A stretch of 43,687 nucleotides of DNA, taken from contig QQUF01000059.1 in NCBI GenBank assembly GCA_008501735.1, forward strand, positions 1 to 43,687. Direction: 5' to 3'. Both the position numbers and the translations under genes were made by a program. Every line of letters begins with the position of its first letter. The stretch's first letter is position 1. A model generated the notes under the pieces. That model saw only the letters and a list, made by a program, of their open reading frames with translations. It ran no database searches and was not told the origin of the DNA. This stretch comes from Calditrichota bacterium (GTDB lineage Bacteria; CLD3). Of the stretch, positions 10,371-43,047 are shown in pieces.

Positions 10371-10448
10371 AAAGTCCCAATTAATTAATATCCAATGATA
10401 TTTTTTTGTATATTCCGTAAAATTTTTAATGAAATAATGGAGATTACA

Positions 10449-10952
10449 ATGAAATATTTTTCAATAATTTTATTCGCATTTTTGATTGCTTGTGCTTCTG
10501 AAAAGCAAGAAAACCAAGCAGGAAAAACTGAGACAAAAGTAGAACAAAATGACTCCAAAAAATATGGTTCTGCTCTAACACTTGACAAACAAGAGAAAAT
10601 CTCAACAATTCTTGCAACACCTGAAGATTTTGTTGGCAAAAAAGTCAAAGTTGAAGGAGTTGTAACTGATGTTTGTGCAATGAGAGGTTGTTGGATTGAA
10701 CTTGCAGGCGACAAACAAGGCGAGTCAATCAAAGTCAAAGTTGTTGATGGGGAAATTGTTTTTCCAATGGAAAGTAAAGGACACAAAGCACTTGTCGAAG
10801 GCGAAATCGAAAAAATCGTTTTGACATTGGAAGAAACAATCGGTTGGGAAGAACACTTGGCAGAAGAACAAGGTAAAGAATTCGACCCAAAATCAGTCAC
10901 CGAAGCAAGAACAATTTATCGTATAAAAGGTATCGGAGCCGAAATTTTTTAA
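10449..10952 (+). CDS. DUF4920-type lipoprotein
   Basis: The start at ATG 10449 gives a lipoprotein signal peptide with lipobox LIAC and a GGAG ribosome-binding site 6 bases upstream; the in-frame ATG at 10395 would add 18 residues and spoil the signal peptide. The mature 150-residue part contains an OB-fold-like domain with VEGVVTDVCAMRGCWIEL, which matches my recollection of the DUF4920 family in Bacteroidota lipoproteins. The CAMRGCW pair of cysteines is conserved there and might bind metal or form a disulfide. It is 3 bp upstream of the PepSY-type gene, so the two are probably co-expressed. No established function. Confidence 0.75.
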   Translation: MKYFSIILFAFLIACASEKQENQAGKTETKVEQNDSKKYGSALTLDKQEKISTILATPEDFVGKKVKVEGVVTDVCAMRGCWIELAGDKQGESIKVKVVDGEIVFPMESKGHKALVEGEIEKIVLTLEETIGWEEHLAEEQGKEFDPKSVTEARTIYRIKGIGAEIF

Positions 10953-10955
10953 GAA

Positions 10956-11510
10956 ATGAAATGGCGAAAGTGGAATAACATTCTCCACAGAGATTTAGGA
11001 TATTTTTTCTTTGGATTGACTGTCATTTACGCAATTTCTGGTTTGGCGGTCAATCACATCCAAGACTGGAATCCAAGTTATAAAATTGAATTTATAGAAT
11101 CACAAATTGAACCTTTTTCACCAACTGACATAAATTTTGATTCAACTGCCTTTAGGATTTTAAATGAGCTTGGAGAAAATGGCTTTTACAAAAGTAGCCT
11201 TTTTACCAAACACGATAATTTTGAAATTTTTGTTGATGGAAACACAATTTCTGTAAACCCACAAACAGGCAAAGTGCTTCAAGAAAAGGTAACTTCAAGA
11301 CCATTCTTAAGAGAGTTTAATTTTCTTCACTTGAATCACCCCAAAAAAATTTGGACTTGGGTTGCAGATATTTATGCAATCGGACTTTTATTAATGGCAA
11401 TAACGGGGCTTTTTGTCTTGCGAGGGCAAAAAGGAATAACAGGAAGAGGAGCTTGGGTTACCTCTTTAGGGATTCTATTACCAATATTTTTCCTTTGGCT
11501 TTATCTATAA
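10956..11510 (+). CDS. PepSY-associated TM helix protein
   Basis: A 184-residue protein with an N-terminal HRDLGYFFFGLTVIYAISGL membrane helix, a periplasmic segment resembling half a PepSY domain (FVDGNTISVNPQTGKVL), a conserved LHLNHPKK turn and two C-terminal helices. This layout matches the short PepSY_TM-like proteins. Larger relatives are haem- or flavin-linked iron reductases, and the His residues near the membrane edge could bind haem, though this is inference. It follows the DUF4920 lipoprotein by 3 bp. Its place before a Tat molybdoprotein suggests an electron-transfer role, but a 120-bp gap separates them. Confidence 0.75.
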   Translation: MKWRKWNNILHRDLGYFFFGLTVIYAISGLAVNHIQDWNPSYKIEFIESQIEPFSPTDINFDSTAFRILNELGENGFYKSSLFTKHDNFEIFVDGNTISVNPQTGKVLQEKVTSRPFLREFNFLHLNHPKKIWTWVADIYAIGLLLMAITGLFVLRGQKGITGRGAWVTSLGILLPIFFLWLYL

Positions 11511-11630
11511 ATAACTAGTCGAAAAATTCTCAAATTTACTTTTACCAACAATTAAATTGAAAAAATTATATTCTTTCTTTAGATTCAAATTGCGACGCAT
11601 CTGTTTTAATTTTTAATTTCAAGGATTTTT

Positions 11631-12494
11631 ATGTTCAAAAAACTACTTTCAGCCACAACTTTGCTTTGTCTTGGAGCATCGAATTTGTTTGCTGGTGCTT
11701 GGACTCAGCCACAAAATAATTTTTATTTTAAAATTTCTATGGCTTCCTCAACAGCAGAAAAACAATTTACTAACAAAGGCAAAACAGCAACCTTAGAACA
11801 GGAAAACTCTCCTTACGAAAACAAGGAGCTTAGTTTCAATGCTTACTTAGAATACGGAGTTACAAACTGGTTAACAGGAGTTATTTCTCTGCCTTACAAG
11901 TCAATTGATTCAAATACTAAAAGTTTTATCCGAGAAAATAAAGGCTCGGGAGATTTAACTTTTGGTGCAAGGATTGGCTTTAATCCGCTTTTTAATCTTA
12001 ATTCACCTGTCGTTACAGCAGCTCAAATTAATTTCAAAATTCCAACAGGTTATGACAATTCAAATGTTCCGTCAATTGGTTCAGGGCAAAAAGACATTGA
12101 TTTTAAATTTATGGCTGGAACTTCATTTTATCCAATTCCTGCTTACTTTACAGGAGACGTTGGATTCCGTTATAGAGCAGATTATCCCGCAAATGAAATT
12201 CCTTACTATGCAGAATTAGGTTACACTTTTAAAAATAGAGTTTTAATTAGAGGGTTTATTGACGGAGTAGCAACTCTTGGAGATTTGGACGAACCTTTTA
12301 ATCCTGCAGCATTAGCAGCTGGAAAACCTTACTTTCCTGAAGCAAGTTCTTACTTAAAAGCTGGTCCTGGAATCATCGTAATTTTGAAGCCCTTTTTAGA
12401 AGTCAACATCGATTACGTTACTATGATTTCTGGTAAAAATACTTTAAAAACAAATGAAGTTTCATTCGGAATTGCTTACAAATTTTCAAATTAA
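11631..12494 (+). CDS. Outer-membrane beta-barrel protein, transporter-like
   Basis: It begins with a clear Sec signal peptide (cut after LFAG/A near residue 22) and AWTQPQNNFYFK, the opening seen in putative outer-membrane transporters of the phenol-pathway (MetA/Phenol_MetA_deg-like) group. The rest is alternating amphipathic strands with aromatic girdles (WLTGVISLPYKSI, GDLTFGARIGF, YAELGYTF), typical of a 12-14 strand barrel. An AAGGA site precedes the ATG. The molybdoenzyme follows 12 bp downstream, so the barrel may serve that pathway. Substrate unknown. Confidence 0.7.
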   Translation: MFKKLLSATTLLCLGASNLFAGAWTQPQNNFYFKISMASSTAEKQFTNKGKTATLEQENSPYENKELSFNAYLEYGVTNWLTGVISLPYKSIDSNTKSFIRENKGSGDLTFGARIGFNPLFNLNSPVVTAAQINFKIPTGYDNSNVPSIGSGQKDIDFKFMAGTSFYPIPAYFTGDVGFRYRADYPANEIPYYAELGYTFKNRVLIRGFIDGVATLGDLDEPFNPAALAAGKPYFPEASSYLKAGPGIIVILKPFLEVNIDYVTMISGKNTLKTNEVSFGIAYKFSN

Positions 12495-12506
12495 TGGGGA
12501 AAATCA

Positions 12507-13664
12507 ATGAAAAATATTAATAGACGAGATTTTATAAAACTTTCAGCAGCAACTGGAACTTCAATTGCTTTTATGGGAATCTTTAATGCCTGTGAAGATT
12601 ACACTTTTGAACCTGTCACAGGTGGCTCTGAAAAAACTTTTATTACAGATATTCAAGACTTTTATACACAATTTGGTAACTCAACAACTTCTGTTGACAA
12701 CCTACCAAATGTAACAAAAGCAAGTTGGCAGCTTGAAATTTCAGGCTTAGTTGACACTCCAAAAACTTTCTCTTTTTCTGAACTTGAAGCACTTGCTTCT
12801 GAACACGAAATGACTTACTTCAAAACAATGAGATGTGTCTTTGATGCTGGAGCTTTTGAAAAATACATTAGTAATGCTTATTGGACTGGTGTTCCTTTAA
12901 AGGTTCTTTTGGAACAAGCAGGAATTCAGTCAAGTGCAAAAAGACTTAGGATTTTCGGTTCTGATGGGTTTACAAATAACATTCTTTTAAGTGATGTAAT
13001 GAAAGAAACTCCTGAAGGTGAACTTCCAATAATTCTTTGTTATAAAATGAATGGTGAAGAACTACCACTCAAACAAGGATTTCCTGTAAGAGTCATTTTC
13101 CCTGAGAAATTCGGTTTTAAAAATATGAAATGGATTAGCAAAATAGAATTGACAGATGTTGACGAACCTTTTGGAGTTTACGAAGTTGATTATGGAATTT
13201 TCGATGACGGAGATTTAAAACCAATTTCCTACATTACCGCTCCTCTTACAAACGAAAACCTTTCTCAAAACTTGACCGAAGGTAAATACACAGTCCTTGG
13301 AACTGCTTTAACAGGCAGAAACAAACCTCAAAAAGTTGAAGTTAGAATTGACGACGGAGACTGGAAAGATGCTTCAATTGCTTCTCGCGAAGAAGTTGAA
13401 AACCAAGTAAGGACTTTTGTTACCGAAAAAGAAGGAAGGCTTCCTTCTGAATTTATTGAACAATTTAAAAATCCAGATGCTTTCTCTTACCCTTTCAAAA
13501 ATACTTGGGTTGTTTGGAAATATGATTTCGAAGTTACGGGTACTGGTGCGGTAAAAATTTCCGCTCGTGTTACTGATGAAACAGGTTTTACTCAGCCAGA
13601 AGAAGATAACACTTTCGATGACGGAAATGTTTCAATTCAAACTGTAGATGCCTCAAAAGGCTAA
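12507..13664 (+). CDS. Tat-exported molybdopterin oxidoreductase, sulfite-oxidase family
   Basis: The N-terminus has a twin-arginine signal (NRRDFIKLSA) followed by a hydrophobic stretch and FNAC, so it is probably a Tat-exported lipoprotein anchored at residue 29. The body matches the sulfite-oxidase-type molybdopterin domain: Cys110 in TMRCVFDAG is the predicted Mo-thiolate ligand, followed by YWTGVPLKVLLEQAG, GSDGFTNNILL and LKQGFPVRVIFPEKFGFKNMK. A C-terminal domain (about 265-385) resembles the Ig-like dimerisation domain. A GGGGA site lies 6 bases before the ATG. Substrate could be sulfite, or the enzyme could be a YedY-like protein repair reductase; the dimerisation domain favours the sulfite-oxidase branch. 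No cytochrome partner sits next to it. Confidence 0.85.
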   Translation: MKNINRRDFIKLSAATGTSIAFMGIFNACEDYTFEPVTGGSEKTFITDIQDFYTQFGNSTTSVDNLPNVTKASWQLEISGLVDTPKTFSFSELEALASEHEMTYFKTMRCVFDAGAFEKYISNAYWTGVPLKVLLEQAGIQSSAKRLRIFGSDGFTNNILLSDVMKETPEGELPIILCYKMNGEELPLKQGFPVRVIFPEKFGFKNMKWISKIELTDVDEPFGVYEVDYGIFDDGDLKPISYITAPLTNENLSQNLTEGKYTVLGTALTGRNKPQKVEVRIDDGDWKDASIASREEVENQVRTFVTEKEGRLPSEFIEQFKNPDAFSYPFKNTWVVWKYDFEVTGTGAVKISARVTDETGFTQPEEDNTFDDGNVSIQTVDASKG

Positions 13665-15193: not shown

Positions 15194-16471
15194 ATGGTCT
15201 TAAAACCAATTGCAAAGTTAACCGGAGCATTAGCAATTACAGCAATTATTGCAGGTAGTTCCTTTGCTCAAGACACTGTTAATATTTCAACTCAACTTGA
15301 AGGTAATTTTATCGATGGAGTTGCAATAGTTGAAGGTTCGACTTACACCTTTGTTTATAATGCTCCAGTTCACGACGCTTTAATTGATGGAGCTGTTCCA
15401 ATTCCCGCAATGGCAACAAGATTGAAATCATTTTTGGCAGGAATTGACGGAATGCAATTAATTATTCCAAGTAATTTCACAAATGTTGACCCTACAACAA
15501 TTACAGCTAATTTTAATGGGTTTAACACAAGCCCTGTCGCTGGTGGAAACATTTTCAATGACATTAACGGTGTAACACCTTGGTTAGTTTGTGATTTTTC
15601 AACTAATGGAACGAACCCTTTCAATACCCCTTTACAAGTTGATTTTGCTACTTCAGGTGGATTTGAAACAATCGCAGGGAATTCTATTCCAGGCTATACA
15701 ATTGGTTCAGAACCTTTGAATTTTGCAGAAATTACTGGTGGAAATTTTGATGTCTCAGGAACAACTGTTCTTAGTCAAAACCCATTTTCTGTTTCAGTCT
15801 CTCACTTTACACCTTTTGCAGGAGTCGCTGCAAGCGATGTTCCTCTTAGTGTTACTTTATCAAGTTTTGAAGCAACTCAAATTTCAGAAGGTATCAAACT
15901 CAATTGGTCAACTGAAAGTGAAGTCAATAACTTAGGTTTTGGGCTTTACAGAACTGAAGGAAATTCTTTTGATTTAGACAGAGCAACCAAACTTGGTGAT
16001 TACAGAACTCATTCAGAACTCGCAGGAAACGGAACTTCTTCACAAAGTAGTTTTTACACTTTCGTTGACAAAAATGTAGAGAACAAAACTTACACTTACG
16101 TTTTATCAGATTTTGATGCTGAAACAGGTGAAGAGATTCACACTGAATTAGCACAAACTGTTTCCTTTAAAACAAATGAAAACAACGCTAAACTTAGCTT
16201 CAAATTAGCTCAAAACTACCCGAATCCTTTTAACCCTGAAACAACAATTGAGTATTCAGTTAAGGAAGCAGTAAATGTTGAACTCTCAATTTTTAATGTA
16301 AAAGGTGAAGTTGTTAGAACACTCACAGCAAATCATTCGGAAGCTACAAACGGAAGTTTTAATTGGAACGGAACTGACGACTTAGGAAAATCTGTTGCAA
16401 GTGGAATTTACTTCTACAAACTCACAGCAGGTGATTTCTCAAGCACAAAACAAATGATTCTTTTGAAATAA
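15194..16471 (+). CDS. Secreted protein with type IX secretion C-terminal sorting domain
   Basis: A 425-residue protein with a Sec signal peptide ending SSFAQ, a unique N-terminal region (about 25-215), an FnIII-like module (VTLSSFEATQISEGIKLNWS through VSF) and a C-terminal sorting domain of about 85 residues. The latter has NYPNPFNPETTIEYSV, FNVKGEVVRTL and the ending SGIYFYKLTAG...KQMILLK, the type-A T9SS signature. It should cross the outer membrane by the T9SS and be released or surface-attached. The start is strongly supported by a perfect AGGAGG at 15181-15186, stronger than elsewhere in the window and suggesting high expression. An intrinsic terminator follows. The N-terminal function is not recognised. 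Confidence 0.88.
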   Translation: MVLKPIAKLTGALAITAIIAGSSFAQDTVNISTQLEGNFIDGVAIVEGSTYTFVYNAPVHDALIDGAVPIPAMATRLKSFLAGIDGMQLIIPSNFTNVDPTTITANFNGFNTSPVAGGNIFNDINGVTPWLVCDFSTNGTNPFNTPLQVDFATSGGFETIAGNSIPGYTIGSEPLNFAEITGGNFDVSGTTVLSQNPFSVSVSHFTPFAGVAASDVPLSVTLSSFEATQISEGIKLNWSTESEVNNLGFGLYRTEGNSFDLDRATKLGDYRTHSELAGNGTSSQSSFYTFVDKNVENKTYTYVLSDFDAETGEEIHTELAQTVSFKTNENNAKLSFKLAQNYPNPFNPETTIEYSVKEAVNVELSIFNVKGEVVRTLTANHSEATNGSFNWNGTDDLGKSVASGIYFYKLTAGDFSSTKQMILLK

Positions 16472-16655: not shown

Positions 16656-18239
16656 TTAAAACAAAATTCCAATTACTAAAAATGACTGCAAGTAGTCGTT
16701 AGTCTCTCCAAAATCGTACTCAACATTCAAATCCGAATAAAATTTTGAATTAAAGTAGTAACCAAGCCCTAAAGCAAAATAATTATTCAGTTCACTACTC
16801 TGCCCATTTGAAATGTAAAAGTAATTTCCGTATTCAAAGGAAGTTGTGAAATTTGTAAACAAATCTTTCTCCAAAACTAAAGAAGTTCTAAATGAACTGG
16901 AGTTTGAGGTGTTGTAGTAGTTTACTCTTGTCCGCACGTAATCAAATTGCAAAATATCTTTGAACGAAACTCCGAAATTTCCACCAATTACAGGTTGTGA
17001 AATTCCTTGACTAAACCTTGTGTTTGCTCCCAAAAAGATTGAATAATTTTTTGCAGAATTGTAGTTTGAACGCAAACTCACTGAATGACTGAATTTGTCG
17101 TTAAACAAACTATCGGGAATGTCGGCAGTCTCGTCAAATTGAATATTTTTGTAAGCATTGTAACTTGCGGAAAGATTCAAATTCTTTTGCATTTTGTAGT
17201 TCGTAGAAAAAAAAGCTCTACGAATTTGGACTTTTGATTCGTCATTATTTTTTAGATAAAGATCTAAACTTTGGTTCAAGAAAAATTTAGTACCAAAATT
17301 CATAAAATTCTGTGTTGCCAAGTACTGCTCGTCAACTTTACCTGCAACATTTTTTTGGTTAAATGAAAAAGTTGTGCGAATCCTGTTACCTGTAAATTCG
17401 CCTTTTTCAAACCTCACAAAAGCACCGAATTTATTTCCGTTACCAAAAAGTTCGTTACCAACTATTCCCGATTCTCTTCCAGCATAAATCCCAGTTTCCA
17501 AATTTTCGCTGACCTTGTAGCCGAATTCTCCACCATTCAAATTTCCTGCCGAAGTAGTTCCTCTTGAGTAAGTTCTTCCAATTGAAAAAAAGTAAGGCGA
17601 GTTTGGATTTTTGTAATTCAACTCCGTTTGGTAAATGTTGTAATTATTTTCATTTTCACCAAGAGTTGCTTTACGCATTTGGTAAGAATGGTTCAGGTAA
17701 ACATTAAACTCTAAAAACGGGAAAATTGCGTTTTGAACTGAAAATTTTAAACTGTTCGTTAGTCTTTGGTTTGTGTAATCAGACTCGTCAAGGTTTCTGT
17801 TGTCCAAAAATTGAATTAGGTAACGACCTCTAAATCTCGTTCTGATTTTTCGTTCTTTTGTCTTTTTTTCAACTAAAGTCAGTTCAGGCAAACTCTCAAC
17901 TTTTCCTGTTTTTGGAATATCTTTTTCCACTTTTACAACTTTTTGCACAGAAGTTAAATCTACTTTGTCTCCAATTTTCGGCTCTTCCAAAATCAAAATG
18001 AATTTTCCTGAAGAAGATTTTCTTGAAACATTTGCGACAACGACTTTTCCGATTAAATTTTCTTTTCTAAAAATCGGCAAAGTGTCGTTTTTCGTAATTC
18101 CTTCTCCAGAACCTGCTCCGATGTAAATAAGTTCGTTTGCGATATAAGTTATTGTTGTAATTCTTTCTTGGGCATTCGATTGCAAAGCCAAAATAACAAT
18201 AAAAAAGCAAGTCAAAATTTTCATCAAATTACTTTTCAT
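16656..18239 (-). CDS. Outer-membrane beta-barrel of the multihaem cytochrome operon
   Basis: A 527-residue protein. The start is the ATG at 18239, which overlaps the upstream cytochrome gene's stop by 11 bases and has AGAGG upstream; a longer frame to 18338 lacks a signal peptide. A signal peptide ends near SNAQ, then comes a small periplasmic-type beta domain (about 25-110: IGAGSGEGITKNDTLPIF, IGKVVVANVS) resembling FlgT-C-like modules. From about 150 onward there are roughly 20-26 amphipathic strands with aromatic girdles, ending in a C-terminal Phe (SFLVIGILF), the usual barrel-assembly signal. Being the last gene after two multihaem cytochromes, it is the plausible outer-membrane sheath of a porin-cytochrome conduit. 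Direct homology to known conduit porins is not shown. Confidence 0.75.
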   Translation of the reverse strand: MKSNLMKILTCFFIVILALQSNAQERITTITYIANELIYIGAGSGEGITKNDTLPIFRKENLIGKVVVANVSRKSSSGKFILILEEPKIGDKVDLTSVQKVVKVEKDIPKTGKVESLPELTLVEKKTKERKIRTRFRGRYLIQFLDNRNLDESDYTNQRLTNSLKFSVQNAIFPFLEFNVYLNHSYQMRKATLGENENNYNIYQTELNYKNPNSPYFFSIGRTYSRGTTSAGNLNGGEFGYKVSENLETGIYAGRESGIVGNELFGNGNKFGAFVRFEKGEFTGNRIRTTFSFNQKNVAGKVDEQYLATQNFMNFGTKFFLNQSLDLYLKNNDESKVQIRRAFFSTNYKMQKNLNLSASYNAYKNIQFDETADIPDSLFNDKFSHSVSLRSNYNSAKNYSIFLGANTRFSQGISQPVIGGNFGVSFKDILQFDYVRTRVNYYNTSNSSSFRTSLVLEKDLFTNFTTSFEYGNYFYISNGQSSELNNYFALGLGYYFNSKFYSDLNVEYDFGETNDYLQSFLVIGILF

Positions 18240-19512
18240 TGTAACCTCTTTTTCGATTCCAACTTGGTGAATCTTCTTCTCCGTTTGGATGGCAATTGTA
18301 ACAAGCAACACTTTCGTAAACGTAACCACCAACGTCATCGTGTTTGTCGTTCATATCGTTTTGGTTGTGTTCGTGGCAACCTGTAAAACACGAAAATACA
18401 TTAAAATCATTTGAATTTATGTGGCAAGTGGAACAATCATTTCCCCAAACGTTTTTATGTTCGCCTGAATAAATTGGGAAGTATTCAGAATCGTGATTTG
18501 TAAGAGTTGCAGGTTGCCAACCATTAAAATTATGACAAACTGTGCAATCGGTTGGGAAAGAATTATGCGAAGGATTTTGTGCATTTTGAAACTCAGATTG
18601 ATGACAAGAAATGCAATCTCTTGGAGTTCCGACATAAACATTATTCACGTGGCAAGCGGAACATTCAGTTATTGCGTGAATCCCGGAAAGTGGGTAAGTC
18701 GAATGGTCAAAAGTCGCAGGTTGCCAACCAAAATTTGTGGTATTGTGGCAAGTTTCACAGTTTGTCGGAAATTGAGATTGGACGTGATTAGGATTTTGGG
18801 CTGTTTCAAAATCAGTTTTGTGGCAAGAATAACAATCCGATGAAGTTTCAGAATAATTTGTAGTTGTGTGGCAAGCATTACAATCTGAAATTTTATGAAC
18901 TCCTGTCAAAGGAAACTCTTCGTGAACAAAGTTTCCGCTTCCCCAACCTCTTTGTTTTGAAGAGTGGCAAACGGTGCAATCAGAAGAATAATTTGCTTCA
19001 ATGTGATTTGGATTTTCGGCACTCAAAAAATCTTGCAAATGGCAGGAAACACAATCGTTACTTTGCCCGACAAAAATTCCCTTGTTCGATTCTTTGTGAC
19101 AAACTTTACAATCCAAAATTTGATGAGCACCTTTTAGCTCAAAGTTTGTTTTTTCATTGTGAAAATTAAGCGAATTTGAAAGTTTCCATTGAGCTTGCGA
19201 ATGACATTCCGAACAATCAGAACCAAAAGCTGAATTGTGAATGTCTGTGTGGCAACTTGAGCAAGTATTTTGAACATTTGAAAAATTCAAATCCTTGTGG
19301 CAACTCAAACAATCAACAGCTTTGTGAGTTCCTTCAAGTTTGTAGTTTGCGTGGTCAGAATGTTTGAATTCAGAATTTGGCTTCATTCCAACCCAAGAGT
19401 TATTCGTGTGGCAAAACAAACAATCTAATTCCAAGTTTCCGTGTGGACTTTGTGCCAAACAGCAACTCAAAAAAGTCAGAAGTAAAATTAAGGTTGTTAA
19501 AGAATTTTTCAT
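18229..19512 (-). CDS. Multihaem c-type cytochrome with 15 CxxCH plus one CxxxCH motif
   Basis: A 427-residue secreted protein: signal peptide to about residue 20, then 15 CxxCH haem-attachment motifs from residue 31 (CLFCH) to the C-terminal region (CYNCH), plus one CFTGCH (CxxxCH) near the end. If all bind haem there are 16 haems in about 400 residues. Motifs come in repeats with a pattern of 'H-x-(3-5)-F/Y-L-x-G-x-H-x5-C-x2-CH', giving the distal histidines for bis-His ligation. It should be a periplasmic or surface electron wire. It sits between the 20-haem cytochrome and the barrel in one apparent operon. Confidence 0.9.
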   Translation of the reverse strand: MKNSLTTLILLLTFLSCCLAQSPHGNLELDCLFCHTNNSWVGMKPNSEFKHSDHANYKLEGTHKAVDCLSCHKDLNFSNVQNTCSSCHTDIHNSAFGSDCSECHSQAQWKLSNSLNFHNEKTNFELKGAHQILDCKVCHKESNKGIFVGQSNDCVSCHLQDFLSAENPNHIEANYSSDCTVCHSSKQRGWGSGNFVHEEFPLTGVHKISDCNACHTTTNYSETSSDCYSCHKTDFETAQNPNHVQSQFPTNCETCHNTTNFGWQPATFDHSTYPLSGIHAITECSACHVNNVYVGTPRDCISCHQSEFQNAQNPSHNSFPTDCTVCHNFNGWQPATLTNHDSEYFPIYSGEHKNVWGNDCSTCHINSNDFNVFSCFTGCHEHNQNDMNDKHDDVGGYVYESVACYNCHPNGEEDSPSWNRKRGYNEK

Positions 19513-19531
19513 TTTTTTTGCTCAAAAATTT

Positions 19532-19586
19532 GGATTGCCGACTTTAGTCGGTTTCTTAGTTTCTAACCGACTAAAGTCGGCAATCC
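19532..19586. repeat. Palindromic repeat family B, copy 1 (intergenic)
   Basis: GGATTGC and GCAATCC form the outer inverted repeat, enclosing CCGACTTTAGTCGG and CCGACTAAAGTCGG, which are complementary to each other and nearly self-complementary. The element can fold as a long hairpin or a cloverleaf. It lies in the 96-bp gap between the two cytochrome genes and resembles the element at 21313-21361. Confidence 0.85.
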
Positions 19587-19608
19587 TGTTGCTGGTTTAT
19601 TTTTCAAC

Positions 19609-21435
19609 TTACTTCACTTCAACGCTTCCGTGACAGGATTTACAATCAGTTTCCAATGGCTTGTAACTCACGAATAACTTGCCCGAATTATGCTTTTCGA
19701 CTTTGTGGCAAGCCAAACATTCAACATTCTCGTGAGCACCTTCAAGTTTGAATTTAGAATCTTTATTGTGGTCAAATTTTGTCTTTTTAAAATCTTCTGT
19801 CGAATGGCATTTTTCACAATCGGTAAAACTTTGTTTTCTGCCATTCACAAATTTCATCGCTTCTTTAAACTGCCCAAAATGAATGTCTAAATGGCAATTT
19901 TCACAGGTTGTGTCAATTGGTTTGTAAAGGATTCTTTCGTTTTGCGTTCCAATTTCAATCGGTTTGTGGCAATCGTTACAAGCTGTTTTTGTGTGAGAAC
20001 CTGTTAGCTCAAAATTTGTCTTGTTGTGGTCAAAACTTGGCAATTCCCAAGAATCTTCATTGTGGCAAGCCTGACAATCATTTTTTGCAATTTTCTCTTT
20101 AAACTGATTTTGGTGAATGTCCTTGTGGCAACTTGAACATTTAATTTCAGAAAAAACAAACTGCGGTCTTGCAGTAAATTTTCCTTCGTCTTGGAGTTTG
20201 TGGCAAAAAATACAAGGTGTTGCCAAATGTCCGCCTTTTAGTGGAAAATCTGTTTTTGCGTGCTTTTCAATTCCGTAAGTCGAAGGACTCCAATCGTTTA
20301 CAGTGTGGCAAACTTCGCATTCGCCTTTGCTTGGCGAGTTTGCAAAATCTCCGAGATGCAAATCTTCGTGGCAACGAGAACACTTGTCAAATTGTAATTT
20401 GGTTTTAAAATTATTGTTTTTATGACACTCCGAACATTCAACTTTAAAATGCTTTCCTTCAAGCGGAAAAGCTGTTTTTGAATGGTCGAAACTTTTGCCG
20501 TCTTTTAGCAAATTCCAACCTTCTGTCGTGTGGCAAGTTTCACAACTTTCTTTGAATTTTCCTTTGTGAATGTCTTCGTGGCAAGAATTACAACTTTCAA
20601 ATTTTAGTCCGACAAATTTTTGAAATTCGGAATCAATTTTTCCAAACTTGTCTTTGTCAGATGATTTTTGGATTTCGTGGCACTTTACACAATCGGTTTT
20701 TTGGTGCTTTCCTGTAAGTTTGTATTTGGAATTATTGTGGTCAAAAGTATTGTCTTTTCCTTTCCAGCGTTCAAAATTATGGCAACTTTCACAATCTTTT
20801 GAAAGTTGTTTTCGATGCTCATCAAAATGGCAAGAAAGGCAATCTTGGTTTAGCCCAAGCAAAGTTTTGTTCAAGTCTTTTTTCTCGGATTCCAAAATAT
20901 CTTTGTCAAAAATATTTTCTTTTCGGTGGCAGACTTCACACTTTTCAGTTTTATGTTTTCCAATTAGTTCGTAACCAGTTTGTGAGTGGTCGAATTTTTC
21001 TTTTCCACCTTCCCAATTTATTTGATTAAAATCTTCTCCAAGGTGTTCGGAATGACACTTTGTACAATTTTTCTCAACAACAGTTTTTATTGAATGGAAA
21101 CCTTTTTTGTTCTCAATTCGGAAATTAATTTCTTTGTGGCAATCCAAACATTGAGGGTCTAAAATTTCCTCACCAATTTCGTGGCAAGCCGTACAATTTG
21201 AAAGTCCTTCAAGGTGAGAATGAGGTTTTGATAATTTTCCCGGTGAAAGAAGTTGTGCTTGGGCTAAACAAGGAAACAAAATTAAACAGAGCAAAATCTG
21301 AAATGAAAAAACAGGATTGCGAACTTTAGTTCGTTTTAAACAGGCTAAAGCCTGCAATCCTAATTGGCAAATTTTTTGAAAATAGGCTAAAGCCTGTGTT
21401 TCTGTTTGTAGAATTTTAGTTAATCGGAACTTCAA
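19609..21435 (-). CDS. Multihaem c-type cytochrome with 20 CxxCH motifs
   Basis: I count 20 CxxCH motifs from residue 81 (CTACH) to the C-terminus (CKSCH) in 608 residues. They recur in units of roughly 'FDH-x3-F-x-L-x-G-x-H-x5-C-x2-CH ... C-x2-CH-x-D-x-H-x2-F ... C-x2-CH', the repeat style of cytochrome-c3-like wires. The hydrophobic core of a signal peptide is at about 45-60 (ILLCLILFPCLAQA). The start is uncertain: the frame opens at a TTG (21435) inside the end of the preceding gene, and the 30-odd residues before the signal core are encoded by palindromic repeat family B (21313-21395). Another in-frame TTG lies within that repeat. The role is likely periplasmic electron transfer from the inner-membrane haem protein to the downstream cytochrome/barrel. 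Confidence 0.88.
   Translation of the reverse strand: MKFRLTKILQTETQALAYFQKICQLGLQALACLKRTKVRNPVFSFQILLCLILFPCLAQAQLLSPGKLSKPHSHLEGLSNCTACHEIGEEILDPQCLDCHKEINFRIENKKGFHSIKTVVEKNCTKCHSEHLGEDFNQINWEGGKEKFDHSQTGYELIGKHKTEKCEVCHRKENIFDKDILESEKKDLNKTLLGLNQDCLSCHFDEHRKQLSKDCESCHNFERWKGKDNTFDHNNSKYKLTGKHQKTDCVKCHEIQKSSDKDKFGKIDSEFQKFVGLKFESCNSCHEDIHKGKFKESCETCHTTEGWNLLKDGKSFDHSKTAFPLEGKHFKVECSECHKNNNFKTKLQFDKCSRCHEDLHLGDFANSPSKGECEVCHTVNDWSPSTYGIEKHAKTDFPLKGGHLATPCIFCHKLQDEGKFTARPQFVFSEIKCSSCHKDIHQNQFKEKIAKNDCQACHNEDSWELPSFDHNKTNFELTGSHTKTACNDCHKPIEIGTQNERILYKPIDTTCENCHLDIHFGQFKEAMKFVNGRKQSFTDCEKCHSTEDFKKTKFDHNKDSKFKLEGAHENVECLACHKVEKHNSGKLFVSYKPLETDCKSCHGSVEVK
21313..21395. repeat. Palindromic repeat family B, copy 2, plus a half copy, inside a cytochrome CDS
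   Basis: AGGATTGC at 21313-21320 pairs with GCAATCCT at 21354-21361, enclosing CGAACTTTAGTTCG and CAGGCTAAAGCCTG, each self-complementary apart from the centre. A further half element AGGCTAAAGCCT is at 21384-21395. On the minus strand the block is open in the cytochrome frame and encodes its N-terminus. Confidence 0.85.
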
Positions 21436-22729
21436 CTACATTTACCCCGATAGATTTTAAAAATTTATTTGGAAGTTCACCACCTGCAAAAATTAAAACA
21501 GAATCATTTTCTTTTTCAATGACTTTGTCTTCAAGATTAATTTTGATTTTATTTTCAGAAATTTCATTAAGGCTTGAGTTGTAGAAAATTTCAATTTTTC
21601 CACTTTCAGCGTAACTCAAAATGTTGTTTTTGTTTTTCTCTTTTGCTCTGTTAAAGTGGTTGTTTCGGTTCACCAAAGTAACGTTGTTAGTATTCTGATT
21701 TGCCAAAGAAACTGCTGCTTCAATCGCACTATCGCCTGCACCAACTACAACAATTTTTTCATTTTTATAAGTCTCTGCGTCTTGGAGTTTGTAAGTAACT
21801 TTTGAAAGTTCTTCGCCAACAACTCCTAATTTTCTTGGAGTTCCTCTTTTGCCAAGTGCAAGCAAAACGTGATTTGCCTTGTAATTTGCCTTTGAGGTTT
21901 CCAAAACAAAATGTCCGTTTTCTTGAGTAAGTGAGTTTAGCTTTTCGTGAGAATTAATTTTGATTCCTGAGATTTGGATTGTTTTGTCCCAAATTTCGAT
22001 TAATTCTTCTTTTGAACAATCGCCAGCCCAAAGCGTTCCGTACATCGGAATTCTCACAGGTTCGGAAAGCAAAAGTTTTTTTCGGGGGAAATTTCGGATT
22101 GTGTTAGCAATGTCGTTTTGCTCAATAATTACGTAATTCAGCTCATTTTTAATACAAGCTAAACCTGCCGACAAACCCGCAGGACCTGAACCAACAATCG
22201 CAATATCAAAAATTTCAGCATTTTCGGAGCGTTTGAAATCTTTTTTACTCAAGATTTTTTCGATTACAAGTTGACCGTCTGTGAGTGCATTTTTAATCAA
22301 ACCTGTTCCTGTTAGCTCACCGATTATAAAAACGTTTTTTAAATTTGATTCGTAAGATTGTTTGTCAAACTCAGGAACTTCTTGCATTCTCGGTTGACCG
22401 ACTTCAAAAAGTTGTAAAGCTCCAGTTGGGCAAGCCTTTGCACAATTTCCGTGACTTTCACAGGCTTTTGGATTTACGAGGTAAGATTTGTTGTTCACGA
22501 TTGCCAAAGTTCCGCCGACATCACAAGCATTCACACAAGAAGCACAACCAACACAAATATCTCTGTCAATTACAGGTTTAAAAGTCCCGATTTCAGATTC
22601 ATCGGGTTCGTAAACTTGGTTCAGAAGTTCGGCGTTTTTTTCGGATTCCTTTTTCTTGTTTCTGATGTAAGGCAAAACAATAATTAGAACGAGAAGAACC
22701 GCAACGGCAATAATTATTAAATTATCCAT
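21416..22729 (-). CDS. Membrane-anchored Fe-S/FAD pyridine-nucleotide oxidoreductase
   Basis: A 437-residue protein: N-terminal membrane helix (3-22), a ferredoxin-like domain with C59-C62-C65-C69 and C90-H93-C96-C100, then a two-dinucleotide-fold flavoprotein like thioredoxin reductase/YpdA (FAD loop VGSGPAG at 169-175, second GxGxxA loop VVGAGDSAIEAA near 320, C-terminal FAGGELPN). The second cluster motif has His where the usual second Cys would be. It is expected to oxidise NAD(P)H on the cytoplasmic face and pass electrons through Fe-S centres to the adjacent haem-type membrane protein (3 bp upstream in the operon). No CxxC redox disulfide of thioredoxin reductase is seen, so ordinary thioredoxin reduction is unlikely. 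Confidence 0.85.
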   Translation of the reverse strand: MDNLIIIAVAVLLVLIIVLPYIRNKKKESEKNAELLNQVYEPDESEIGTFKPVIDRDICVGCASCVNACDVGGTLAIVNNKSYLVNPKACESHGNCAKACPTGALQLFEVGQPRMQEVPEFDKQSYESNLKNVFIIGELTGTGLIKNALTDGQLVIEKILSKKDFKRSENAEIFDIAIVGSGPAGLSAGLACIKNELNYVIIEQNDIANTIRNFPRKKLLLSEPVRIPMYGTLWAGDCSKEELIEIWDKTIQISGIKINSHEKLNSLTQENGHFVLETSKANYKANHVLLALGKRGTPRKLGVVGEELSKVTYKLQDAETYKNEKIVVVGAGDSAIEAAVSLANQNTNNVTLVNRNNHFNRAKEKNKNNILSYAESGKIEIFYNSSLNEISENKIKINLEDKVIEKENDSVLIFAGGELPNKFLKSIGVNVVEVPIN

Positions 22730-22732
22730 TTT

Positions 22733-23635
22733 TTAGCCAAGTAGAGTTTCTAAGAATAAATTGAATCTTTCAAAAGTGTACCATTTTCCAATCAAACTTG
22801 CTACCGAAACGTGAACGACCAAAATTAAAAACATAATTATTACAAATGGTTTGTGGAAAATGTGCCAGTATTGGAGAAGTCCTTGCATCGTTTCGTAGGT
22901 AACTTGTTTTCTTACTAAAATGTGTCTTCGTTTGAGCATTTTCAAAAATCTTTTGCGTTGGTCAGGCGGAATTTGGGTTTCATTTTTTAAGATATTTTTT
23001 GTCTTTTGCATTTTAAAGAATAACGCAATGTCTTGCCCAAGAATTGCATTAATCGCTTTGAATCCTGACAAATCTCTTAAGTAAGTGTAATCCATAAAAT
23101 CTTCAATTTTTGCCCAAGCTTTAGGATTTTCAAAAATAAAATCTTGAAGTTCGTTGTTAAGCAAAATTTCATTTTTATGAAGTTCGCTTAGTGAAAGTTT
23201 ATTTCCACTCATACTTCTTGGGAGTTGCGAGTAAAGATATTTTCCGAGAACTCCGCTAAGCCAAACCAAAAACATACTCCAATAAGAAATCGAAACCAAA
23301 CCACCGAAATTAAAAGCTGTGTGATAAGTAATTAAAATTGGTCCCATATTTCCCATCCAAATGTGATAGTCAAGCCAGTAATCCAGATTTCCCCAATTTT
23401 GCATAAACTTTAATTTTTTTCGAGGAACGTAAACCAACATCACAATCATTAAAATTGTGCCAACCATTCCCAAAGTATGTCCATAAATTCCAGAAGGTTT
23501 AAAGAGTTCGTGTAACTCAGAAGCATTTTGTTCGATAGGTGAAAGCGAGAAGTAAATGAATCCGTGATACCCAATCAAAATTGTAACGACTACAAGAATT
23601 ATCCAAAGTATTGAAAGAACGATTTTATGGAGCAT
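22733..23635 (-). CDS. Haem-b-type integral membrane protein (ferric-reductase/cytochrome-b-like)
   Basis: A 300-residue protein with about five or six membrane helices and histidines within them at spacings typical of bis-His haem b sites: YHGF in helix 1, YGHTLG, DYHIWMG and TYHTAF in the middle, WHIFHKP and LVVHVSV in the last helices. A charged soluble loop (about 150-245) separates the helices. This pattern fits ferric-reductase-like or cytochrome-b561-like proteins that carry electrons across the inner membrane or exchange with quinone. It lies 3 bp before the Fe-S/FAD subunit and 11 bp after the K+ channel gene. Confidence 0.75.
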   Translation of the reverse strand: MLHKIVLSILWIILVVVTILIGYHGFIYFSLSPIEQNASELHELFKPSGIYGHTLGMVGTILMIVMLVYVPRKKLKFMQNWGNLDYWLDYHIWMGNMGPILITYHTAFNFGGLVSISYWSMFLVWLSGVLGKYLYSQLPRSMSGNKLSLSELHKNEILLNNELQDFIFENPKAWAKIEDFMDYTYLRDLSGFKAINAILGQDIALFFKMQKTKNILKNETQIPPDQRKRFLKMLKRRHILVRKQVTYETMQGLLQYWHIFHKPFVIIMFLILVVHVSVASLIGKWYTFERFNLFLETLLG

Positions 23636-23646
23636 AATTTTACTAT

Positions 23647-24669
23647 CTAAATTTCAAAGTATTTTTCTAATTCGACTCTTTCTTCGGGATTTGTCATTAC
23701 AACTAAAGTATCACCCTTTTTCAATTTTTGTTCCCTGAGAGGATTGTAAAGCCAGTTTGAATCTCGTTTCAATGCCAAAACTAAAGTTGCAGGAAAATCT
23801 CTAAGTCCAATTTCGCGAATTTCTTTACCAATAAATTTGTCTTTTATCACAATTTCTTCAATTCTCAAATTCTTGTCTTGGTCTCGGAGCATTGTGTCCA
23901 AAAACGAAACTACTGTCGGACGAATCATCTCGGAAGCCATTCGCAATCCGCCGATAAATTTTGGAGTAATTACTCCGTCAGCTCCTGCTTGGCGAAGTTT
24001 TGGGTCGTATTCCAAATTATCACAACTTGAAATTATTTTTAAATTTGGGTTCAAATGTTTTGCAGTAAGACAAATTACTAAATTTTGGTTATCATTTCCT
24101 GTTGACGCAAAAAGTCCGTAAGCATTTTCAACTCCCGCATCTTCTAAAACAGAATTTTGTGTCGCATCACCTTTTATGTAACAACCGTCAGGGTGTCTTT
24201 CAATGAAAACTTTCAATTTTTCATCACTCACGTCAACGACTACAAAAGGTCTTTTTGTATTGTCTAATTCTTTGGCAATGTGTTCGCCGATTTTGTTATC
24301 GCCACAAATTATGAAATGACCGTGTAGTTTTTCGATTTTCTTTTCCATTTTTATCTTTCTAAATGTGTTTTTAATTTCTCCGTCAATTACAAGGGCTGTA
24401 ATATTTGATAAAATGTAAGTGAATCCACCAATGCCCGAAAATGCAATAAAAATTGTAAAAAGCCTCGCAGAAGTCGTTTGAACTTCTACAACTTCTCCAT
24501 AACCGATTGTCGAAATCGTAATCATTGTCATATAAAAACATTCGAGAAGCGTAAATCTTGCATCGTCGATGTAATAGTAACCGAAAGTTCCGATTAAAAT
24601 TATTGAAATCAAAATTCCGAATGCGAAAAAAAATCTTGTGTAAACTCTGTTTACAATGGGGTTTATCAT
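23647..24669 (-). CDS. Potassium channel with RCK (TrkA-N/TrkA-C) domain
   Basis: A 340-residue channel: TM1 (about 10-30), pore helix and selectivity filter TIGYGE, TM2 (about 70-95), then a cytoplasmic RCK domain (HFIICGDNKIGEHIAKEL) with NAD-type fold and a TrkA-C ligand module at the C-terminus (about 255-335). It forms tetrameric K+ channels gated by ligand binding to RCK domains. It is the first gene of the minus-strand run that continues with the haem protein, the Fe-S/FAD enzyme and the cytochromes at spacings of a few bases, which is unusual company; charge balancing during electron export is a possible explanation (inference). Confidence 0.9.
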   Translation of the reverse strand: MINPIVNRVYTRFFFAFGILISIILIGTFGYYYIDDARFTLLECFYMTMITISTIGYGEVVEVQTTSARLFTIFIAFSGIGGFTYILSNITALVIDGEIKNTFRKIKMEKKIEKLHGHFIICGDNKIGEHIAKELDNTKRPFVVVDVSDEKLKVFIERHPDGCYIKGDATQNSVLEDAGVENAYGLFASTGNDNQNLVICLTAKHLNPNLKIISSCDNLEYDPKLRQAGADGVITPKFIGGLRMASEMIRPTVVSFLDTMLRDQDKNLRIEEIVIKDKFIGKEIREIGLRDFPATLVLALKRDSNWLYNPLREQKLKKGDTLVVMTNPEERVELEKYFEI

Positions 24670-26999: not shown

Positions 27000-27013
27000 A
27001 ATTGGAAAATAAA

Positions 27014-30000
27014 ATGAAATCAAAACTCAAGACCTTGCTCCTTTTACTTTTCCTAAATGTTTTGTGCTTTTCACAAACTTTAACAAACTCAAATTTGCCA
27101 ATTGTTGTCATTAACACAAACGGGCAAACAATTCCAAACGAGCCCAAAATTACAGCCGATATGGGAATCATTGACAACGGAATCGGACAAATTAACAACG
27201 TAAACGACCCCTTCAACGACTACGACGGAAAAATTGGAATTGAGCTTAGAGGCTCAAGTTCACAATCTTTTCCCAAAAAACAGTACGCTGTCGAAACACG
27301 TGATTTGAGTGGAAATCCTCTTAATGTTCCGCTTCTTGGAATGCCCGAAGAAAACGACTGGATTCTACACGCTCCGTACAGCGACAAATCTTTGATGCGA
27401 AATTACTTGGCTTACAATTTAGGAACTGAACTTGGCTGGTACGCAAGCCGAACACGCTTTTGCGAAGTTGTGATTAACGGCGATTACAAAGGTGTTTACA
27501 TTTTGCTCGAAAAAGTCAAACGCGACGACAATCGAGTTGACATCAAAAAAATCCTTCCAAACGACAATTCTGGAGATGAACTTTCAGGCGGTTACTTAAT
27601 CAAAATTGACAAAAGCACTGGAGCAAACAACGACGGTTGGGCTTCAACCTTTCCGCCTTACGCAGGTTCAAGCCACCAAATTCTTTACAAATACCACAAC
27701 CCTGACCCAACTGAAATTACCAATGCACAAAAAACTTACATTCAAAATTTCATCTTTCAATTTGAATCAATGATGGATTCAGTGAATTATACGAATCCAT
27801 TTTCTGGTTATTACGATTTGGTAAACATTGATTCCTTTGTGGATTTTTTCATAATGAATGAAATCGGGAAAAATGTTGACGGCTATCGAATCAGCACTTA
27901 TTTGTACAAAGACAGAAACAGCGTTGATTCAACGCTTCATATCGGACCTCTTTGGGATTTTAATTTGGCTTTTGGAAATGCCGATTACTACGACGGTGAA
28001 TTGACAAATGGTTGGCATTACGAGTTTCCTTTTACAGGAGACGGGAATCAAGTGCCGTTTTGGTGGGATAAATTTTATGCTGACCCATTTTTTCAGAACA
28101 AATTGGCTCTTCGTTGGCAAGAACTGCGAAGCGACATTTTGCACACTGATTCGCTTTGGGCTTACATTGACTCAACAGTTTCACTCTTGGATTCTGCACA
28201 AACTCGGAACTTTCAACGTTGGCAAATTCTTGACACTTACATTTGGCCCAACGCTTACGTCGGAATGACTTATCCAAATGAAATCACTTACTTAAAAACT
28301 TGGATTCAAGGTCGTTTGATTTGGATGGATTTACAAATTTCTCCAACACCAAGTTTTATTGATTGGGAAAAGCCTGAAAATATTTCAATAAATTACCCAC
28401 TTGGTGGAGCCGAAACTTTCCATTTGGGCGAATTAATTAAATCGCCAACAACAAACATTGATTCAGTAACTTTTATCGGAAATTTCCCCCAGCTTCAAAT
28501 TTACCAAAACTTTGATTCATTAACCGTAACCTCCTTTTTTGCAGGTGATTTTCTTTTAAAAGGACTTGGTTGGAAAAACGGCGAGATTGTTTTTCACTCT
28601 CCTTCTTACGAAGTCAAAGCAATTGCTTCCGACTTAACGACAACAAATTTACCGATTGTGGTGATTAATTCGGGAATTAACCAAATTCCTGAAAACAACA
28701 AAATTACTGCCCAAATGGGAATAATTTCAAACGGAAATCCGAACAATCTTTACGACCCTTTTAACGATTTTGATGGTTTTATTGGAATTGAAATTCTTGA
28801 AAATGAATCGAACCTTGAGACTTTCCCCAAAAAAGATTACTACTTGGAAACTCGCGACTCAAACGGAAATAACCTCAATGTTTCGCTTCTCGGAATGCCT
28901 TCTGAAAATGACTGGATTCTTTACGCTCCTTACAGCGACAAAACTTTAATGCGAAATCACTTTGCCTACACAATTTCAAACGAAATTGGAAATTACGCAC
29001 CAAGAACAAAATTGTGTGAATTAGTGGTAAACAACGACTATAAAGGCATTTACGTTTTGATGGAAAAAATCAAACGTGACAAAGATAGAGTTGACATAAA
29101 AAAATTAGACGAAAACGACGTTAGTGGAAATGCAGTTACAGGAGGATACATTTTACAAGTAAATTCTAATTCCAACGAAGATTGGTTTTCAAATTTTCCA
29201 CCTTTTAGCGGAGCAATTAAACAAATTTCTTACTCTTACAACTACCCTTCAAAAAATGACATTCAACCCGAGCAAGAAATTTACATTCAAAATTACATTC
29301 AACAATTTGAAACTTTGATTGACAGCAGTGCTTTTGACGCTGTTTTTGGCGGTTACTACGATTTTGTGAATTTTGATTCATTTGTAGATTTTTTCATTTT
29401 GAACGAGTTTGCAAAAAATGTGAAAGGATTTCGGCAAAATTTTTATTTGCACAAAGACCGAGACGACGAAAATGGAAAATTAACAGCAGGTCCAATTTGG
29501 GATTTTAACATTGCTTTTGGGAACGCAAATTTTTACGACGGAGCAGGTGCAACAGGTTGGATTTCGGATTTTAATCAGCCGAATGAAGAATTACAAATTC
29601 CGTTTTGGTGGAAAAAAATGATTCAAGATCCAATTTTTCAAAATTCCGTTTCAAAGCGTTGGGAAATTTTAAGAACTGATGAACTCCACAAAGATTCACT
29701 TTCTGCAAAAATTACAGGATTTGAAACTTACCTTGACCAAGCACAAAACCGAAATTTTACAAAGTGGCAAACCCTTGGAGAACTCGTTTGGCCCAACCAA
29801 TTCGCTTTTCAAACTTACCAAAATGAAATTGTTTACTTCGAAAATTGGGTTGAAAGCAGAATTGATTGGATTGATTCAAATCTACCAACTCCTTCAAAAG
29901 TTACTTGGGAAAACCCTGAGTCAACTGTGATTCTCGCACCTTTACAACAGGCGACTACGATTAGCAAATCAACTTTTTACACAAGTTTAACGAATGTCGA

Positions 30001-30472
30001 TTCTTTGTCGTTTTTTAGTGAAAATACTTCACTAACAGTTTCGCAAAACCAAGATTCAGTATTTTTTACAACGACTCAAAACGGCGAATTTGAAATCAAA
30101 GGAGTTGGTTACAGAAACGGGGAAAAAGTAGAGATTTCACCAAAATTTTTAGTAACAACCACTCTAACTGAAATTGAATCTAAAAACTCAAAACCTGAAT
30201 ACTTTATTTTAAGTCAAAATTATCCAAATCCATTTAACCCAACAACAGTGGTAAATTATGAATTACTAATTACTAATTACGAGAAAGGTAAATTGCTAAT
30301 CTTTAACATTTTAGGCGAAAAGGTAAAAGAATTTGAACTTACTAAGAACAAAGGCTCAGTTATTTGGAATGGAACTAATTCGTTTGGAAAACAAGTCTCA
30401 AGTGGGATTTATTTTTACAGAATTGAGGTCGGAGATTTTAGAAAAACTAAGAAAATGTTGTTGCTTAAGTAG
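27014..30472 (+). CDS. Secreted protein with two tandem CotH-kinase domains and T9SS sorting domain
   Basis: A 1152-residue protein. I prefer the ATG at 27014, which starts directly at the signal peptide (LLLLLFLNVLCFSQ), over a TTG 12 bases upstream. Two homologous halves follow: residues about 26-455 and about 545-970, each with PIVVIN, FPKK (near 86 and 604), ENDWIL.APYSDK.LMRN, YKG.Y.L.EK.KRD..RVDIKK and WDFN (near 313 and 829). CotH proteins are secreted protein kinases. The first half keeps the G-loop-like RGSSS before FPKK; the second has ENESN instead and may be inactive. The C-terminus is a T9SS type-A sorting domain (QNYPNPFNPTT near 1068; SGIYFYRIEVG, KMLLLK at the end). Confidence 0.9.
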   Translation: MKSKLKTLLLLLFLNVLCFSQTLTNSNLPIVVINTNGQTIPNEPKITADMGIIDNGIGQINNVNDPFNDYDGKIGIELRGSSSQSFPKKQYAVETRDLSGNPLNVPLLGMPEENDWILHAPYSDKSLMRNYLAYNLGTELGWYASRTRFCEVVINGDYKGVYILLEKVKRDDNRVDIKKILPNDNSGDELSGGYLIKIDKSTGANNDGWASTFPPYAGSSHQILYKYHNPDPTEITNAQKTYIQNFIFQFESMMDSVNYTNPFSGYYDLVNIDSFVDFFIMNEIGKNVDGYRISTYLYKDRNSVDSTLHIGPLWDFNLAFGNADYYDGELTNGWHYEFPFTGDGNQVPFWWDKFYADPFFQNKLALRWQELRSDILHTDSLWAYIDSTVSLLDSAQTRNFQRWQILDTYIWPNAYVGMTYPNEITYLKTWIQGRLIWMDLQISPTPSFIDWEKPENISINYPLGGAETFHLGELIKSPTTNIDSVTFIGNFPQLQIYQNFDSLTVTSFFAGDFLLKGLGWKNGEIVFHSPSYEVKAIASDLTTTNLPIVVINSGINQIPENNKITAQMGIISNGNPNNLYDPFNDFDGFIGIEILENESNLETFPKKDYYLETRDSNGNNLNVSLLGMPSENDWILYAPYSDKTLMRNHFAYTISNEIGNYAPRTKLCELVVNNDYKGIYVLMEKIKRDKDRVDIKKLDENDVSGNAVTGGYILQVNSNSNEDWFSNFPPFSGAIKQISYSYNYPSKNDIQPEQEIYIQNYIQQFETLIDSSAFDAVFGGYYDFVNFDSFVDFFILNEFAKNVKGFRQNFYLHKDRDDENGKLTAGPIWDFNIAFGNANFYDGAGATGWISDFNQPNEELQIPFWWKKMIQDPIFQNSVSKRWEILRTDELHKDSLSAKITGFETYLDQAQNRNFTKWQTLGELVWPNQFAFQTYQNEIVYFENWVESRIDWIDSNLPTPSKVTWENPESTVILAPLQQATTISKSTFYTSLTNVDSLSFFSENTSLTVSQNQDSVFFTTTQNGEFEIKGVGYRNGEKVEISPKFLVTTTLTEIESKNSKPEYFILSQNYPNPFNPTTVVNYELLITNYEKGKLLIFNILGEKVKEFELTKNKGSVIWNGTNSFGKQVSSGIYFYRIEVGDFRKTKKMLLLK

Positions 30473-43024: not shown

Positions 43025-43047
43025 TAATTTATTCCTTTGTTAAATTC

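Follow-up and report, generated by a model that had tools for sequence, protein, structure and literature searches.

The window analysed here is a whole contig of 43,687 nucleotides (QQUF01000059.1, assembly GCA_008501735.1) from the 4.1-Mb genome of a Calditrichota bacterium. By RecA comparison, the best matches of the host in named phyla stand at ~62-64% (Calditrichota, Rhodothermia, and Neomarinimicrobiota), which agrees with the FCB group and goes no further. It carries, all on the minus strand, six open reading frames that an initial annotation had read as a single system: a potassium channel, a haem-b membrane protein, a membrane-anchored flavoprotein, two multihaem cytochromes, and an outer-membrane beta-barrel, making together a path for electrons from the cytosol to the cell surface. 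All six frames were found where that annotation had placed them, and motif and sequence checks confirmed its haem counts, a barrel that ends in Phe, and a flavoprotein anchored in the membrane (Table 1). Here, the locus is compared with PCC3, a porin-cytochrome conduit proposed in 2017 from the genomes of Fe(II)-oxidising bacteria, and built of a porin, extracellular and periplasmic multihaem cytochromes, and an inner-membrane protein, or IMP (He et al., 2017; PMC5566968).

Table 1. Genes of the locus and features within their products, with positions in the window (TM, transmembrane).
Feature	Position	Strand	Basis or remark
RCK/TrkA-type K+ channel	23647..24669	-	Pfam and NCBIfam matches
Haem-b inner-membrane protein (PCC3 IMP), 300 residues	22733..23635	-	hhalign to Gallionellaceae PCC3 IMP; AlphaFold2 model; topology
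TM3 motif W87-X3-H91-X13-H105, two predicted haem-b ligands	23321..23377	-	H91 and H105 invariant in 36/36 rows
TM5 motif W257-X3-H261-X13-H275, two predicted haem-b ligands	22811..22867	-	H261 and H275 invariant in 36/36 rows
Membrane-anchored ferredoxin/FAD/NAD(P)H oxidoreductase, 437 residues; proposed cytosolic electron-input subunit	21416..22729	-	Pfam and NCBIfam matches; conservation; linkage
N-terminal TM anchor, then basic residues	22655..22729	-	Body predicted cytoplasmic by the positive-inside rule
Dicluster ferredoxin domain; site 1 CX2CX2CX3C, site 2 CX2HX2CX3C	22418..22579	-	Pfam; alignment
Displaced C-terminal FAD-binding segment (NVxGxYIxGELGGMxLIRNA in relatives)	22226..22396	-	Lies between ferredoxin and FAD domains
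FAD- and NAD(P)H-binding domains, YpdA/TrxR-like, without redox CxxC	21431..22213	-	Pyr_redox_3 and YpdA-like matches
20-haem c-type cytochrome, predicted periplasmic	19609..21435	-	CXXCH count; identity to Gallionellaceae PCC3 periplasmic cytochromes
15-16-haem c-type cytochrome, predicted extracellular PCC3 subunit	18229..19512	-	Motif count; loci of relatives
Outer-membrane beta-barrel	16656..18239	-	Frame listed from 18338; predicted fold; hhalign to PCC3 porins

The genes stand close together. The gap between the channel gene and the haem-b gene is 11 bp, that between the haem-b gene and the flavoprotein gene is 3 bp, and the frames of the flavoprotein and the 20-haem cytochrome, as listed, share 20 bp; the TTG start listed for that cytochrome is probably too early. 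A gap of 96 bp then precedes the 15/16-haem cytochrome, and the barrel very likely begins at the ATG at 18239, which lies 11 nt inside the preceding gene. Among the six proteins, Pfam recognizes the RCK potassium channel, cytochrome c7/c3-type domains, and the protein that joins a dicluster ferredoxin domain to a Pyr_redox_3 domain. It offers no family above its cut-off for the haem-b protein, and none that matches the barrel. Searches of PDB sequences with profiles of these two proteins gave nothing meaningful, and, for the barrel, no MtrB-like match.

Relatives of these genes indicate which of the six belong together. When relatives of the haem-b protein were sought, the same neighbours recurred: flavoprotein, haem-b protein, 20-haem cytochrome, another large cytochrome, and barrel. 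Named species genomes, scanned with the flavoprotein alignment alone, gave 80 loci in Bacteroidota, Calditrichota, Acidobacteriota, Nitrospirota, Gemmatimonadota, Planctomycetota, Proteobacteria, Neomarinimicrobiota, Zixibacteria, and others; profiles find a haem-b protein in 68 of them. Forty of these loci span at least 18 kb, enough to show a whole cluster. Here, the haem-b protein is found in 39/40, a cytochrome with at least eight haems in 39/40, and a barrel in 36/40. The neighbourhood survey that the initial annotation had proposed for the flavoprotein and haem-b pair therefore bears out that pairing. The same pairing is seen in a sampled set of 290 genomes at least 90% complete, where, with E up to 1e-10 accepted for the haem-b protein and up to 1e-90 for the flavoprotein, the former occurs in 35 genomes, the latter in 21, and both in 20. 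The Fisher p of 1.7e-20 for this co-occurrence ignores phylogenetic non-independence; evidence from adjacency and fusion is, of course, independent of that p. A search of a viral collection returned no relatives.

The fusions are direct. In ten Planctomycetota loci the flavoprotein and the haem-b protein occupy one reading frame of ~740 residues, with the flavoprotein N-terminal, and a shared frame of the same kind is found in three of the sampled genomes (G175, G264, and G296). The conserved module is therefore five of the six genes: those for the haem-b IMP, the flavoprotein, the 20-haem cytochrome, the 15-16-haem cytochrome, and the barrel.

The sixth gene, for the potassium channel, is real, but no homologue of it appears at any of the 80 flavoprotein loci, nor beside the closest relative of the haem-b protein (64-65% identical). 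It was therefore rejected as a subunit of the conduit, and the view of all six genes as one system stands for five. A channel might, of course, serve a conduit without being fixed to it, balancing the charge of outward-moving electrons as Hv1 does for NOX2. It lies on the same strand, immediately upstream of the haem-b gene, and RCK domains can sense nucleotides. Set against its absence from every related locus, such a role seems extremely unlikely.

The five conserved genes resemble PCC3 in having a porin, extracellular and periplasmic cytochromes with few residues per haem, and an IMP with five TM helices. The PCC3 IMP is defined as a protein of ~300 residues with five TM helices, carrying SGXXG on TM4 and WX3HX13H on TM3 and TM5, and the PCC3 periplasmic cytochrome as having ~21 haems, at 22-39 residues per haem (PMC5566968). 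The haem-b protein of the window has the same length, the same five helices, SGXXG, and both copies of WX3HX13H. Aligned by hhalign with the IMP of Gallionellaceae, whose PCC3 loci have been surveyed (PMC10734462), it gives P 100% and E 8.9e-41. The 20-haem cytochrome has 20 CXXCH motifs, or one haem for every ~27 residues once the signal peptide is removed, and is ~33% identical to the periplasmic cytochromes of Gallionellaceae PCC3. The barrel is a distant relative of PCC3 porins (hhalign P 94%, E 1.2e-7, 320 columns); BLASTP did not detect this likeness. The clusters compared were those of relatives of Sideroxydans sp. LH_M3, which have the layout of PCC3. Because the IMP profiles join, the periplasmic cytochromes align, and the barrels are distantly homologous, the module is a member of PCC3. 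The initial annotation had held that its reading would fail if the barrel were unrelated to conduit porins and the genes did not co-occur; the barrel is so related, and the genes do co-occur.

The second cytochrome has 15 CXXCH motifs and one CX3CH, and the haem number of its homologues ranges from 9 to 70 across loci. In two of these loci it has 70 CXXCH motifs (L085:13113-18359) and 64 (L078:3365-8350). The size of the 20-23-haem cytochrome, unlike that of the second, is nearly constant across loci. The barrel is predicted to have 22 strands (pLDDT 82) and a small N-terminal domain. Foldseek finds for it generic ushers and porins, which fits a large barrel and is not diagnostic. It is smaller than the porins of the Gallionellaceae clusters, which have 720-890 residues, and than those of the PCC3 paper, which have up to 42 predicted TM regions. 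Like the MtrCAB and Pcc (OmbB-OmaB-OmcB) conduits, the locus combines a barrel with predicted periplasmic and surface multihaem cytochromes; unlike theirs, its barrel has neither a Pfam match nor a PDB sequence match, and nothing found places it in the MtrB/PioB family of the MtrAB, PioAB, and MtoAB conduits. Its proposed inner-membrane entry is also different, being a haem-b/flavoprotein pair rather than CymA, CbcL, or ImcH.

The flavoprotein also accompanies PCC3 in relatives of Sideroxydans sp. LH_M3. Of 41 genomes in this set, 21 carry the flavoprotein, 22 the IMP, and 19 both (p 1e-6); in 18 of these 19 the two genes lie side by side, divergently transcribed. One locus, L136, shows a canonical PCC3 cluster (an IMP of 298 residues, cytochromes of 24 and 10 haems, and a porin of 748 residues) together with a divergent flavoprotein gene. 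As described, PCC3 has four genes, belongs to Proteobacteria, and feeds the quinone pool; the window adds a flavoprotein as a fifth subunit, in a module found in many phyla. The main texts of four PCC3 papers do not mention this flavoprotein (PMC5566968, PMC10734462, PMC12442390, PMC8788666). In the main texts of open-licence PMC papers, no report was found of a flavoprotein partner of PCC3, of a permuted TrxR-ferredoxin, or of a NOX-like conduit, although an earlier mention is possible. Thus, the arrangement that had seemed unfamiliar to the initial annotation is in large part a described one, with porin, two cytochromes, and haem-b protein already known, and the new part appears to be the flavoprotein.

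This flavoprotein is of an unusual construction. Its TIGR04018 match, without any alteration of the sequence, covers positions 1-262 of the 316 in the profile. When the displaced segment is moved to the C-terminus, the match grows to 1-313 of 316, and the score against the YpdA structure 7a7b rises from 97 to 106 bits. Because the restored segment lengthens the match and lifts the score, we read the protein as a circularly permuted member of the YpdA/TrxR type, with FAD and NAD(P)H domains that then align over nearly the whole YpdA model. It scores below the cut-offs of the named families (173 versus 340 bits for TIGR04018, 83 versus 343 bits for TIGR01292), and it differs from YpdA/TrxR in its permutation, its N-terminal anchor, its dicluster ferredoxin, and its lack of CxxC. 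At the second ligand position of Fe-S site 2, 40 of the 41 aligned rows have His. At the same position of site 1, just 17/41 have Cys, with Ser, Thr, or Gly in the other 24/41. This, in turn, means that many members of the family do without a full set of Cys at both sites.

The redox CxxC of TrxR is found nowhere in the flavoprotein of the window, and in 1 of the 41 rows. This makes it more likely that electrons pass to Fe-S clusters rather than to thiols, and a reading of the protein as a thiol reductase was rejected. The same observation bears on the proposal that no conduit exists here, and that the flavoprotein and the haem-b protein instead serve cytochrome c maturation or periplasmic redox homeostasis, reducing the thiols of apocytochromes or haem iron. 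Genes for cytochrome c assembly (CcsBA, CcmH-like TPR) do adjoin the module in several loci. Against such a role stands, besides the lack of CxxC, the conservation of a barrel and a large cytochrome in nearly all of the long loci, and we judge it very unlikely.

The haem-b protein, modelled by AlphaFold2 with pLDDT 91, places a basic helical domain of ~120 residues ahead of TM5. The distribution of charge puts this domain, the loop after TM2, and the body of the flavoprotein on the cytosolic side. With this topology, H91 and H261 would lie near the cytosolic face, and H105 and H275 near the periplasmic face. He et al. recognized in the HX13H motifs of TM3 and TM5 the pattern of ferric reductases and NOX, yet proposed a link to quinone (PMC5566968). 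In NOX and ferric reductases (FRD, PF01794), as is proposed for this locus, an NAD(P)H-FAD module, sometimes fused, feeds a membrane protein that has two HX13H motifs on TM3 and TM5. The flavin module there is an FNR-type domain; here it is a TrxR/YpdA-type flavin domain with a ferredoxin.

Putting these observations together, we consider it likely that these genes specify a porin-cytochrome conduit of the PCC3 type, equipped with an NAD(P)H dehydrogenase of its own, and that this conduit carries electrons outward and bypasses the quinone pool. Here, cytosolic NAD(P)H would reduce the FAD of the flavoprotein. By way of the two Fe-S sites, electrons would move onto the inner of the two b haems (H91/H261), then through the inner membrane onto the outer one (H105/H275), and from there into the 20-haem periplasmic cytochrome. 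They would then cross the outer membrane via the 22-strand barrel and leave through the 15-16-haem surface cytochrome, with Fe(III), Mn(IV), humics, flavins, O2, and electrodes as candidate acceptors. The conduit would, in other words, act as a NOX or ferric reductase stretched over both membranes. Of this, the sequences show the gene content, the conservation of domains and motifs, linkage, fusion, and homology to PCC3. The proteins would further need to form a complex, to bind haem at the His residues named, to pass electrons outward in the order given, and to expose the last cytochrome at the surface. The path from cytosol to surface that the initial annotation had proposed, starting at an NAD(P)H dehydrogenase, is thus supported by conservation, fusion, and adjacency in many phyla, with the channel removed from it.

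Several points weigh against this reading, some of them leading to alternatives. First, the likeness of the haem-b protein to FRD is drawn from its motifs. Its score against PF01794 is 16.3 bits (E 0.01), below the gathering cut-off of 28; hhalign gives a weak alignment (P 8%, E 0.004) that has H91 and H105 in register; and Foldseek returned no match. Membership in that family is therefore not established, and the haem-b protein is said here only to work like a ferric reductase or NOX. The window proteins likewise have no family-level sequence match to NOX/FRD, and their electrons are proposed to continue into c-type cytochromes and beyond the outer membrane. Second, it is the R355 and K363 of the nucleotide site, invariant in 41 rows, that suggest a preference for NADPH over NADH. 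Third, no PCC3 has to date been examined biochemically (PMC12442390).

A fourth point is that some PCC3 IMPs have no flavoprotein beside them (G332, G340, and the other copies in G351), so a link to quinone may exist in these. This agrees with the published model, where the quinone-active cytochrome b proposed by He et al. (PMC5566968) exchanges electrons with the quinone pool, leaving the flavoprotein separate or auxiliary. That model must, however, accommodate a flavoprotein/haem-b adjacency that is near-obligate and sometimes a fusion. Further, because the flavoprotein family has its own Fe-S clusters and membrane anchor, a quinone step would be unnecessary. We therefore regard the quinone-coupled model as unlikely for the locus.

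The fifth point concerns direction. Extracellular Fe(II), minerals, or cathodes might instead feed electrons inward, with the flavoprotein reducing NAD(P)+. PCC3 was, after all, discovered in Fe(II) oxidisers (PMC5566968), and in Sideroxydans CL21 one of the PCC3 copies has an IMP whose expression rises when the cells are able to oxidise iron, which fits inward flow (PMC12442390). In ES-1, by contrast, expression of both PCC3 clusters falls on Fe(II) (PMC8788666). Because the two strains point opposite ways, expression data leave the direction unsettled. The presence of an NAD(P)H flavoprotein at the inner end favours outward flow. Inward flow from Fe(II) to NADP+ would be uphill at neutral pH and would oppose the membrane potential, which also favours the outward direction. 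Further, the module occurs in Flavobacteriaceae and Emticicia, which are not known to oxidise iron. Electron uptake thus seems quite unlikely.

The last point is that outward flow from NAD(P)H would dissipate membrane potential, and so would not be obviously respiratory. This suggests that the conduit would serve for reduction or for the disposal of electrons, rather than for respiration that conserves energy. The host genome also holds three genes of the haem-copper-oxidase family, and the host is therefore probably not confined to extracellular respiration.

With these points in view, we advance a broader proposal tentatively. PCC3 conduits of this kind, in anaerobes and aerobes, may be quinone-independent, electrogenic wires from NAD(P)H to the surface that discharge or deploy reductant outside the cell rather than oxidise Fe(II), a two-membrane analogue of NOX and ferric reductase built on a permuted ferredoxin-YpdA flavoprotein.

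Variants were also seen around the module and its haem-b domain. In seven loci from Flavobacteriia, Saprospiraceae, and Emticicia (L059, L066, L081, L085, L088, L094, and L106), the module adjoins a CcsBA-like cytochrome c assembly protein of ~1040 residues, an assignment checked by Pfam in L094, and a lipoprotein of ~260 residues, in which a GW domain was found in L106. Related haem-b domains occur in proteins of ~660 residues fused with ferredoxin clusters (L030:4857-6842 and L031:7510-9492). The former adds a cyclic-nucleotide-binding domain (Pfam); the latter adjoins 6- and 27-haem cytochromes and a candidate outer-membrane protein of 483 residues. These two suggest that the haem-b/cytochrome part accepts differing cytosolic input modules, in a PCC4-like manner. 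A second, shorter haem-b-like protein (190 residues) and a 10-haem cytochrome sit within a PCC3-type cluster at L025:10654-12095.

Elsewhere in the window, positions 10395-13664 hold, in a row, a DUF4920 protein, a PepSY-TM membrane protein, a candidate outer-membrane protein of 287 residues, and a molybdopterin enzyme of the sulfite-oxidase fold; these may amount to a periplasmic Mo enzyme and its redox partner in the membrane. Positions 40349-43686 encode the C-terminal part of a cytochrome b and then an 891-residue protein that carries several c-type domains; the pair, truncated where the contig ends, resembles a fused bc-type complex. The protein at 27002-30472 (1156 residues) has, when read by eye, two halves that are alike and CotH-kinase-like, followed by a sorting-type domain at its C-terminus, and a tail of the same kind ends the product of 15194-16471.

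Since 2017, PCC3 has been listed as a candidate conduit for iron oxidation, with its electron entry and its direction left undefined. The linkage and fusion of the flavoprotein point to NAD(P)H as the likely entry, and this would reverse the direction expected. Both the entry and the direction can be checked with purified proteins. The system is, in addition, shown to reach beyond Proteobacteria into many phyla, and into cultured Flavobacteriaceae and Emticicia, in which extracellular electron transfer is not generally expected.

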